A stretch of 64,000 bases of DNA, from positions 938,368 through 1,002,367 of the forward strand of contig JAURFE010000001.1 of NCBI GenBank assembly GCA_030827135.1, written 5' to 3'. Position 1 is the stretch's first letter. Each line of letters starts with the position of its first letter. Below, one piece after another: positions 6,148 to 57,285 of the stretch. The notes beneath the pieces were generated by a model. It was not told the DNA's origin. It saw only the letters and a program-made list of their open reading frames with translations, and made no database searches. Source of the DNA: Vicinamibacterales bacterium. Its GTDB lineage: Bacteria > Acidobacteriota > Vicinamibacteria > Vicinamibacterales > SCN-69-37. The position numbers and the translations under genes are program-made.

Positions 6148-6207
6148 AAAAGACGTCGGGAGGCTTTTTCGGCCCCGCCGCACCGAAAAAGCCTCCCGAC
6201 GTCTTTT
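6148..6207. terminator. bidirectional terminator-like hairpin (GACGTCGGGAGGC family)
   Basis: Perfect 25-bp arms (6148-6172 and 6183-6207) with a 10-base loop. The stem contains GACGTCGGGAGGC and ends in A/T runs, giving a U-tract on both strands. It begins two bases after the adaptor gene stop and precedes the M24 gene. A second copy is at 55247-55306 and a half copy at 44181-44200, so it is a dispersed repeat as well as a likely terminator. Confidence 0.85.
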
Positions 6208-23663: not shown

Positions 23664-24572
23664 ATGACAGTCAAGACAGTCTCTGTGAATCAGCGGGTGG
23701 GGTTGCGGTCTGGGGGCACGGGTACGATGGCCGGCGCCAAGGAGAACCGCTACAGCAAGGTCTCCTGGACCACCGCGATTTTCATGACGCTTTTCCACAT
23801 CGGTGCCGTCTGGGCCCTGTTCGACTTCACCTGGTCGGGCGTGGTCGTGCTGCTGGTCACCTACTACATCTCGCTCGCGTGGGGCATCGGCATGTCCTAC
23901 CACCGGCTGCTCACGCACCGGTCGTACAAGACGCCGAAGTTCGTGGAGTACTTCCTCACGATCTGCGCGACGCTTGCGCTTGAGGGGGGACCACTCTTCT
24001 GGGTCGCCACGCACCGGCGTCATCACCAGCATTCGGATTCGGACCATGACCCCCACACGCCCCGCCACGGCGGCTTCTGGGCGCACATGGGCTGGATCAT
24101 GTTCGGCGACGCGCAGCACAACAACGTGACGATGCCCGCAAAGTATGCGCCGGACCTCGCGAAGGACAAGTTCCATGTGTGGCTCAGCGCGTATCACTGG
24201 GTGCCGCTGACCGTGCTCGGCCTCGTGTTGTGGGCCCTCGGTGGCTGGAACTGGGTCCTGTGGGGCGTGTTCCTGCGCACGACGCTCGGTCTGCACTCCA
24301 CGTGGCTGGTCAACTCGGCCACGCATCTGTGGGGCGGCCGCCGCTTCCAGACCCGCGACGACTCCCGCAACAACTGGTGGGTCGCCCTGCTGACGTTCGG
24401 CGAAGGCTGGCACAACAACCACCACGCCCACCCGACCTCGGCCGCCCACGGCCTGGCCTGGTACGAAGTCGACCTCACCTACCTGCACATCCGCGCCCTG
24501 CAGCTGCTGGGCCTGGCCACCGACGTCAAGCGCGTCCGCGTGGACGAGGAGATGCAGGAAGAAGCGGCGTGA
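23664..24572 (+). CDS. acyl-CoA/fatty-acid delta-9-type desaturase
   Basis: A 302-residue membrane di-iron desaturase with the three histidine boxes: HRLLTH (80-85), HRRHHQHSD (117-125) and HNNHH (about 251). Two pairs of transmembrane helices flank them. It introduces a double bond in fatty acyl chains, adjusting membrane fluidity. TATCGT lies seven bases before the ATG and no SD is present, so translation is probably leaderless. It is followed by a 184-bp low-complexity repeat tract. Confidence 0.92.
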   Translation: MTVKTVSVNQRVGLRSGGTGTMAGAKENRYSKVSWTTAIFMTLFHIGAVWALFDFTWSGVVVLLVTYYISLAWGIGMSYHRLLTHRSYKTPKFVEYFLTICATLALEGGPLFWVATHRRHHQHSDSDHDPHTPRHGGFWAHMGWIMFGDAQHNNVTMPAKYAPDLAKDKFHVWLSAYHWVPLTVLGLVLWALGGWNWVLWGVFLRTTLGLHSTWLVNSATHLWGGRRFQTRDDSRNNWWVALLTFGEGWHNNHHAHPTSAAHGLAWYEVDLTYLHIRALQLLGLATDVKRVRVDEEMQEEAA

Positions 24573-24606
24573 CGGCTCGCGCGCGCCTACCGCGCGCGTT
24601 GCCGTC

Positions 24607-24790
24607 ATTGAGGATTGAGGATTTGGGATTGAGGATTTGATTGGGGGGATTGCGGGATTGAGGCAATCCCGCAATCCCGCAATCCCACAGTTTCTCAATC
24701 CGACAATCCCCCAATCAATCCCACAATCCGCAATTGAGCGCGCAGCGCCCCAATTGCCAATCCTCAATCCTTCCTCCTCAATCCTCAATC
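24607..24790. repeat. AATCCC(G/C)-type degenerate short tandem repeats
   Basis: The intergenic tract holds runs of GATTGAG, then CAATCCCG/CAATCCCA and CAATCCTC words in 7-9 bp steps, many being inverse complements of each other. A related tract lies at 57080-57285. It has no coding potential and no unique spacers. Confidence 0.8.
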
Positions 24791-24792
24791 CT

Positions 24793-24871
24793 CCTTGCCG
24801 GCCTGAACACAACGGACATTGCGCCGATTCGATAGAATCGGCGCAATGTCCGTTGCTCCAGGCCGGCAAGG
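24793..24871. repeat. long inverted duplication over the histidine kinase start
   Basis: Inner arms of 20 bp (24811-24830 and 24835-24854) are perfect, with loop GATA. Outer arms (24793-24805 and 24859-24871, core CCTTGCCGGCCTG) extend the pairing after a short mismatch of five and four bases. The kinase start codon lies in the 3' arm, and the -10-like TAGAAT overlaps the loop. The 5' arm is an inverted copy of the first codons of the gene. Confidence 0.85.
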
Positions 24872-25766
24872 CGCTATCGCGTTCTTCGTGACGTTCTGCG
24901 TCCTGCTGGTCGTCCTCGCGCTCGCGCTCAACGTCCAATGGGTGGTCCAGAACTGGCGGCAGGTCGTGCCGCTGGTGCTGGGCATTCCCATTTTTGCGGC
25001 GATTATCACCGGCCTCATCCTGAACACGATCTTTCTCGTGCGCGAAATCCGGCGGAACGAACAGAAGGATGCGTTCATCAACGCCGTCACGCACGAACTC
25101 AAGACCCCGGTCACGTCCATCCGTCTGCACCTTGAAACGCTCAAGACTCGCGATGGCTCGATCCCCGAGGACACGCGGCGACAGTTCTACAACGTCATGC
25201 TCGATGACACCGACCGGCTGATGCAGACGATCGACCAGGTGCTGCGCGCGGGACAGTCGGGCAAGACGACGCTGCACAAGGAACGGGTCAATCTAGTCAC
25301 GCTCACCGACGAGTGCATCGAACTCACCCGCACACGCCGGCACCTCGTGGAGGCGCAGCTGCGACGGGTGCCGTTTGCCGGCGACGACCGTCCAGCCGAG
25401 ATTCTTGGTGACCCGTCGGCATTACGCGCCGCGATCGTCAACCTGCTCGACAACGCCGTGAAATATTCGGGCGAGACCATTGATGTGTCGGTTGAAGCCG
25501 GCGTGGTCGGCGACTGGGGCGTCGTACGCGTGACCGATCTGGGCGCCGGCTTCACACCTGCCGAAGGCGCGCGCCTCTTCAAGCGCTTCTACCGCGTGCC
25601 CGGCGCACTCACACAACGGATCAAAGGCACGGGCCTCGGCCTGTTCATCGTCCACAATACGGCCACCCAGCACGGCGGGCGTGCGTCGGCCACCAGCCCA
25701 GGTCCAGGCAAGGGGGCGACGTTTGTGTTTGAAATCCCGGCGGCACCCGTCCAGCCATCGGCGTAG
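24846..25766 (+). CDS. sensor histidine kinase
   Basis: A 306-residue two-component kinase. Two membrane helices (about 12-31 and 42-62) enclose a very short periplasmic loop, so it may sense within the membrane. There follow the HisKA box VTHELKTPVTS with His83, the N-box NLLDNAVKYSG, the G1 region DLGAGFTP and the G2 region GTGLGLFIVHN. TAGAAT lies seven bases before the ATG; no SD is present. The start lies within the long inverted duplication. The response regulator gene follows after five bases. No HAMP domain is visible. Confidence 0.93.
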   Translation: MSVAPGRQGAIAFFVTFCVLLVVLALALNVQWVVQNWRQVVPLVLGIPIFAAIITGLILNTIFLVREIRRNEQKDAFINAVTHELKTPVTSIRLHLETLKTRDGSIPEDTRRQFYNVMLDDTDRLMQTIDQVLRAGQSGKTTLHKERVNLVTLTDECIELTRTRRHLVEAQLRRVPFAGDDRPAEILGDPSALRAAIVNLLDNAVKYSGETIDVSVEAGVVGDWGVVRVTDLGAGFTPAEGARLFKRFYRVPGALTQRIKGTGLGLFIVHNTATQHGGRASATSPGPGKGATFVFEIPAAPVQPSA

Positions 25767-25771
25767 ATCCC

Positions 25772-26470
25772 ATGGCCTACATCCTCATCTGTGAAGACGA
25801 GCCGCACATTGCCTCCGGGGTGAAGTTCAATCTCGAAGCGGAAGGACACCAGGTGACGGTGGCTGGGACCGGCGAGGATACGTTGGCGCGCATCGCCGCC
25901 GCGCCGGACGCGGTCGACGCGCTGATTCTCGACGTGATGTTGCCAGGCATCGACGGCTTCGAGGTCGCGCAGACCCTCCGGTCGCGCGGCTGGCTGCGTC
26001 CCATTCTGATGTTGACGGCCCGCGGGCGCGCGGAGGACGTGCTGCGCGGGTTCGAAGCCGGCACCGACGACTACCTGCCGAAACCGTTTGATTTGGCGAT
26101 TCTCGTGGCGCGGTTGAACGCATTGCTGCGGCGTCAGCAATGGAAGGTCACGCCTCCGCCGCCGGATGTGTTTGTGTTTGCCGGCCGGACCGTGGACTTC
26201 GCGGCGCAGGAACTGCGCGTCGACGACACGGTGCATCCGTTGACGCTGATGGAAGTGAACCTGCTGCGGTATCTTGTCCAGCGCGACGGGCAGACCGTGT
26301 CACGCAAGCAACTGCTGGCCGAGGTCTGGAACGTGCACGAAGACACCGACACCCGCGCGATCGATCACTTCATGTCGCGCCTGCGCAAGTACATCGGCGA
26401 ATCACCGACGCACCCGAAACACCTGCTCACGGTGCGAGGGGTGGGGTACAGGTTCGATTCGGGCACGTAA
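25772..26470 (+). CDS. OmpR/PhoB-family response regulator
   Basis: A 232-residue regulator. The receiver domain has acidic residues CEDEP, phospho-acceptor Asp54 in LILDVMLPG, and Lys104 in LPKPF. The C-terminal winged helix (about 130-232) ends LLTVRGVGYRFDSGT, as usual in the family. It lies five bases after the histidine kinase gene and is presumably its partner. The stop codon is immediately followed by palindromic repeats that separate it from the convergent PQQ-propeller gene. Confidence 0.95.
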   Translation: MAYILICEDEPHIASGVKFNLEAEGHQVTVAGTGEDTLARIAAAPDAVDALILDVMLPGIDGFEVAQTLRSRGWLRPILMLTARGRAEDVLRGFEAGTDDYLPKPFDLAILVARLNALLRRQQWKVTPPPPDVFVFAGRTVDFAAQELRVDDTVHPLTLMEVNLLRYLVQRDGQTVSRKQLLAEVWNVHEDTDTRAIDHFMSRLRKYIGESPTHPKHLLTVRGVGYRFDSGT

Positions 26471-31707: not shown

Positions 31708-31719
31708 CGCTCTCTCGCG

Positions 31720-31850
31720 GGTTCATGGCTCATCGGTTCGTGGTTCATGGTGCCGTTACTGGTGCACGGTGCTGGGTTCAAGGTTCAGGGTTGCTTCTGG
31801 GTTCCGCACCGATGAACCTATGAACCGATGAACCATGAACCCTCGCGCAG
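31720..31850. repeat. ATGAACC/GGTTCAT degenerate short repeats
   Basis: Words GTTCATGG, GGTTCAAGG, GGTTCAGGG on one side and ATGAACCT, ATGAACCG, ATGAACCC on the other form a loose inverted arrangement between two convergent genes. The last codons of pabBC (EGSWFIGS) come from this tract, so the repeat has replaced or extended the original 3' end. Confidence 0.7.
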
Positions 31851-55246: not shown

Positions 55247-55306
55247 AAAAGACGTCGGGAGGCTTTTTCGCTCTCAGAGGCGAGAGCAAGCCTCCCGACG
55301 TCTTTT
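55247..55306. terminator. terminator-like cruciform, GACGTCGGGAGGC family
   Basis: Arms of 17 bp (55247-55263 and 55290-55306) flank an inner GCTCTC/GAGAGC hairpin, with A and T runs outside. It is the second complete copy of the element at 6148-6207. It lies between convergent genes (the VWFA trio and DUF922), where a bidirectional terminator is useful. Confidence 0.85.
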
Positions 55307-57075: not shown

Positions 57076-57079
57076 GGAT

Positions 57080-57285
57080 GAAGGATTGGCAATTGGCTCG
57101 ATTGTGAATTGAGGGATTGAATGCGCCAATTCCACAATCCCACAATCCCACAATTCCACAATTCCACAATCCCTCAATCCGCCAATCCGCCAATCCGCCA
57201 ATCAATCCCACAATCAGCAATTGAGTGGCGCAAGCCACCCAAATTGCCAATCCTCAATCCTCCATCCTCAATCCTCAATTCCCAT
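57080..57285. repeat. CAATCCC/CAATTCC degenerate short tandem repeats
   Basis: More than fifteen 8-9 bp words (CACAATCCC, CACAATTCC, CCGCCAATC) flanked by ATTGAGG/CCTCAAT complements. It is the same repeat type as 24607-24790, more than 32 kb away. It ends exactly at the stop of the sortilin-like gene. Confidence 0.8.

Follow-up and report, generated by a model that had tools for sequence, protein, structure and literature searches.

A hairpin over a histidine kinase gene start as a probable scar of template switching at a quasipalindrome

Template switching at quasipalindromes is known from E. coli, where it lengthens and perfects short quasipalindromes (PMC7202029), and template switching has also been described in RNA genes, where it leaves reverse-complement copies with paired changes (PMC8794818). 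Work on bacterial leaderless genes has placed a TANNNT hexamer about 12 bp before the start, with three of three Acidobacteria genomes positive for this signal (PMC3160421). Both topics bear on an inverted repeat at positions 24793-24871 of a stretch from a Vicinamibacterales genome (GCA_030827135.1, contig JAURFE010000001.1; the window, i.e. the whole stretch analysed, is 64,000 nucleotides long, and all coordinates without a prefix refer to it), which covers the promoter and the first codons of a sensor histidine kinase gene. We regard this hairpin, with a probability of roughly 0.77, as a lineage-specific mutational scar from template switching at a quasipalindrome.

The kinase gene (HisKA and HATPase_c domains; 24846-25766, with its ATG at 24846) lies between a fatty acid desaturase gene upstream (23664-24572) and a response regulator gene (Response_reg and Trans_reg_C; 25772-26470), the probable partner of the kinase, and all three genes are on the forward strand. 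The spacer between desaturase and kinase is 273 bp long. It begins beside an imperfect hairpin (TGACGGC...GCCGTCA; 24570-24607, forward strand) over the desaturase stop codon, continues with a repeat tract (24607-24792), and its end forms part of the inverted repeat, whose 3′ arm reaches 26 nt into the kinase ORF. An in-frame upstream TTG (24819) was considered as the kinase start and rejected; relatives align from the ATG or GTG.

The inverted repeat comprises 34 pairs in 79 nt. Its 5′ arm (24793-24830) is an inverted copy of the -10 flank and kinase codons 1-9, the loop is GATA (24831-24834), and the 3′ arm (24835-24871) carries the rest of the -10 box, the start codon and codons 1-9. More specifically, an outer stem of 13 bp (24793-24805 paired with 24859-24871) and a perfect inner stem of 21 bp (24810-24830 paired with 24835-24855) are separated by a bulge of 4/3 nt, in which AACA (24806-24809) faces CTC (24856-24858). 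The sequence-only reading of this DNA had described an inverted copy running from the -10 region through about nine kinase codons, with only GATA as loop and with the -10-like TAGAAT (24833-24838) straddling loop and arm, and the pairing bears out each of these points; its single mismatch block is also present, while its count of 33 paired positions has to be raised by one.

As RNA, the segment 24780-24900 has a predicted minimum free energy (MFE) of -75.8 kcal/mol (z -11.2), and none of 200 shuffled sequences folded as well. In 1.2 Mb of the same contig, surveyed as stretches with ~72 kb masked as N, no hairpin whose loop is at most 30 nt exceeds this one in length, the runner-up having 28 pairs, and no second hairpin was found there over a predicted gene start (starts being called by a simple codon-usage caller). 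In one Markov-3 simulation of 800 kb, no hairpin stem reached a length of 14. Chance comes nowhere near explaining the structure. When loops of up to 300 nt are allowed, longer inverted repeats do exist in the 1.2 Mb, mostly in dispersed repeat elements. The hairpin itself does not behave as a dispersed palindromic repeat, its core GATTCGATAGAATC occurring once in the 1.2 Mb, and an Rfam search returned nothing above the gathering threshold, only sub-threshold matches, mostly to microRNA models. A dispersed operator was also tried as a description of the palindrome and rejected: GATTCN4GAATC occurs five times in the 1.2 Mb, and the other four sites are not near a predicted gene start.

Which of the two arms is the copy can be read from related genomes. 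The kinase gene was found in five other members of the genus (G001, G003, G004, G005 and G006; one genome per species). The closest of these, G004 (VFZF01000004.1, assembled from a metagenome and labelled Acidimicrobiia), agrees in gene order, its kinase protein is 89% identical, and its spacer is 31 bp long (GTGCCCGCGCTGATTCGATAGAATCAGCCCG-ATG). It shares the promoter core and start (GATTCGATAGAATC..ATGTCCGTTGCACCAGGCCGGCAAGG) and the GATA loop; in promoter core and codons 1-9 it agrees with the 3′ arm, which is therefore the original and the source of the copy. Neither the 5′ arm nor the repeat tract is present in G004, G001, G003 or G006, and in G005 the same spacer holds another tract, whose own inverted repeat, of 28 bp, stops 2 nt short of the kinase ATG. 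Conservation of the arms, which had been proposed as a check, thus fails for the long arm in all five congeners with the gene. At the three promoter positions where the source genome and G004 differ, the 5′ arm, once reverse-complemented, reads GGCGCA as the 3′ arm does and not AGCCCG as in G004, and it was therefore copied, or homogenised, after the split from G004. As is expected of a template switch, one arm is homologous to the relatives and the other is a derived reverse-complement copy. By parsimony, the 5′ arm would have been gained on the branch leading to the source genome; alternatively, it could be older and have been lost again in G004. The G005 inverted repeat (L005), an independent one, spans positions -131 to -2 as counted from the kinase ATG, with one arm at the desaturase gene end and the other over the kinase -10 box region.

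The same comparison reveals a seed. An 11-bp quasipalindrome around the -10 box (24820-24845, forward strand), which appears to be ancestral, is paired at 11 of 11 positions in the source genome and, around the same GATA loop, at 10 of 11 in G004, where the chance of such pairing at a fixed spot is ~2e-5. Between the two genomes, two inner-stem positions have changed on both sides (T-A vs C-G, and C-G vs T-A), and the C.C mismatch of the G004 seed is a C-G pair in the source genome. A shorter, imperfect inverted repeat therefore occupies the same place in G004, which here stands in for a reconstructed ancestor. Quasipalindrome template switching leaves just this signature, an imperfect inverted repeat that has been lengthened and improved in its pairing in a single lineage. 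The earlier suggestion of a recent template-switch scar accordingly gains support from G004, which tells source from copy and still carries a seed, and from the extension being specific to one lineage. Three points can be taken as shown by genome comparison: the identity of the copied arm, the lack of that arm in relatives, and a seed in one of them.

In the course of events that we propose, the ancestor would have carried a short quasipalindrome around the leaderless -10 box of the kinase. There, during replication, the nascent strand would have folded back or changed template, and the promoter together with the first 26 nt of coding sequence would have been copied as the reverse complement; next to the repeat tract the polymerase would then have resumed on the normal template, by a route that is itself a reconstruction, and an imperfect 11-bp hairpin would have become one of 34 bp. 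Two itineraries fit equally well: in one the nascent strand folds back at the seed hairpin, in the other it jumps to the opposite strand and returns at GATTC. The AACA block facing CTC, one nucleotide longer, counts against a single clean copy; a mutation after the event, an error in copying or a further event would have to be added. We infer that the gain of the 5′ arm was nearly neutral, since it left coding sequence, -10 box and start codon intact and since the predicted mRNA does not include this arm.

A structure of this kind could arguably also be produced in the laboratory. Strand-displacement amplification yields chimeric fold-back products, and the genome assembly consists of 80 contigs, both of which would suit a fold-back chimera arising from short reads or amplified DNA. 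Such an amplification or assembly artefact is nevertheless very unlikely: the 79-nt structure fits within a single read, its arms differ in one block, and further long inverted repeats are found elsewhere in this genome, as well as in G005 at this very locus.

What the hairpin can do to expression depends on where the kinase transcript begins. The -10 element TAGAAT begins 13 nt before the kinase ATG and ends 7 nt before it, a position shared with the relatives, and in most relatives, near and far, the kinase ATG or GTG is preceded at 5-8 nt by a TANNNT-like hexamer. For the 582 genes of the source genome whose upstream region is free, TANNNT is most frequent 6-7 nt ahead of the predicted starts (15% of genes, vs 3.6% in a control interval). 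The distances, TAGAAT beginning 13 nt before the ATG and the genome-wide signal peaking 6-7 nt before starts, resemble those of the leaderless genes described in bacteria (PMC3160421), with the difference that the start here is predicted from sequence alone. The kinase promoter is thus probably leaderless and, with the -10 box 7 nt before the ATG, the kinase mRNA should start at or next to the ATG, without the 5′ arm. A transcript predicted from the ATG contains only the outer part of the 3′ arm, and its first 15 nt are predicted to be unpaired.

It had been suggested that the hairpin, as RNA, buries the start codon and may act as a thermometer-like switch. The first half of this holds on an extended transcript, in which the ATG does lie inside the stem, and fails on the predicted mRNA of the kinase itself, whose start is open. 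An RNA thermometer or similar leader switch hiding the kinase start codon is consequently extremely unlikely: in a gene that looks leaderless, the start region is not paired within a 5′ leader of its own, and a stem of ~-70 kcal/mol (MFE of the segment -75.8 kcal/mol) is far from marginal stability near growth temperature and would not melt there. The lack of conservation also speaks against the switch.

Extended transcripts would matter if polymerases read through from the desaturase gene, which lies upstream in the same orientation, since the hairpins could then insulate the kinase by sequestering its start codon or by stopping RNA polymerase. The whole spacer indeed folds into three abutting hairpins (MFE -205.8, z -18.4). 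We consider an RNA insulator of this type unlikely, given that relatives manage without the hairpin and that the read-through is itself only supposed; moreover, no intrinsic terminator (a GC-rich stem followed by a T run) was found in 24500-25000, and a terminator and sigma-70 scan at the locus gave no match.

At the DNA level, supercoiling-driven extrusion of a cruciform could take the -10 box and the start region out of duplex and so repress the kinase. The 34 bp with a 4-nt loop offer a good extrusion geometry, the hairpin folded as single-stranded DNA scores -49.6 (z -11.8), the inner stem covaries between two species, and precedents have been described, e.g. the E. coli hupA promoter (PMC3969353). 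A cruciform switch is still distinctly unlikely, as none of the five other genus members that have the gene carries the long arm and stems near leaderless -10 boxes are not generally enriched in the source genome: no trend was seen for stems with centres within ~2 nt of the -10 centre, in a scan that leaves out the present hairpin, itself centred ~3 nt away. Covariation in the inner stem, a point against the scar reading, might also result from selection on the palindrome. That the -10 palindrome is a selected DNA structure, extended in one lineage into a cruciform switch that would hide the -10 box and the start region, seems to us quite improbable.

The beginning of the kinase gene also shows few synonymous changes, which counts against the scar reading as well. 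In codons 2-22 (24849-24911), 1 of 15 four-fold sites differs from G004, vs 78 of 148 over the remaining codons, a deficit of synonymous change with a binomial p of 2e-4. Gene starts show a mild reduction on average (0.27 vs ~0.42 at four-fold sites), and the value for the kinase is therefore not fully explained by the general trend; constraint or recombination may account for it.

The hairpin had also been noted to follow directly a repeat tract that is partly self-complementary, which is correct, and the tract can now be assigned. The GATTGAGG/CAATCC tract at 24607-24792, which G004 lacks at the corresponding site, represents, in degenerate form, a dispersed family of intergenic long inverted repeats, with elements of ~110-200 bp and arms of up to 42 bp that are built from 7-9-nt iterations (GTTATTGAGGATTGAGGA...TCCTCAATCCTCAATAAC). 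Its right end adjoins the gene-start hairpin and its left end the hairpin over the desaturase stop; insertion of the element and the inverted copying may have been one event or two. Further members, with iterated GGATTGA arms and inner GGCAATTG, are found elsewhere in the source genome at C11:488968-489146, 633074-633238 and 160318-160488, and their modular build recalls BOX elements. A second family has CAATGGGG units (C11:672604-672714 and 182579-182719), a third GGTTCATGG units (C11:574941-575068 and 708220-708409). Within the window, a similar element of the GGTTCAT type at ~31708-31817 has no counterpart at the site in G004, while a GGATTGA-type element between convergent genes (57076-57284) is retained there with other inner repeats, at a length of 141 bp vs 209 bp in the source genome. 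Repeat elements of this kind vary in presence or length between the two genomes at several sites. The window also contains two copies of a dispersed hairpin family (AAAAGACGTCGGGAGGCTTTTT...; 6148-6207 and 55247-55306), the second with a T run following it after a gene end, and GACGTCGGG sites number 54 in the 1.2 Mb.

Compared with known systems, the hairpin, read as a mutational scar, is ordinary in kind and unusually clear in detail. Cruciform promoters such as that of E. coli hupA, together with the 77-bp repeat before the P. gingivalis capsule operon (PMC3969353), likewise have a long inverted repeat at a gene or operon start, and the hupA repeat overlaps promoter signals as this one does; those repeats come with expression or protein-binding data, whereas the present one is known as sequence and is not conserved. 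A striking hairpin over a start codon can, in other words, arise without being a switch, and it is the predicted leaderless start that decides whether an RNA hairpin can matter. With the hairpins made by template switching in RNA genes (PMC8794818) it shares a near-perfect stem attributable to one event, a small bulge and paired inner-stem changes, although those cases concern RNA genes and microRNAs and this one a bacterial promoter known from DNA alone. In quasipalindrome switching in E. coli (the Ripley model; PMC7202029), an inverted repeat is likewise lengthened and perfected by nascent-strand copying, as would be the case here from a seed found in a relative; the differences are that the change is here seen only by comparing species, and that the extension is larger (~27 nt beyond the seed) and runs over a promoter and start codon. 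The locus would thus offer a clean natural case in which template switching rewrote everything upstream of the -10 box and spared the gene, and for which a sister species still shows the seed.
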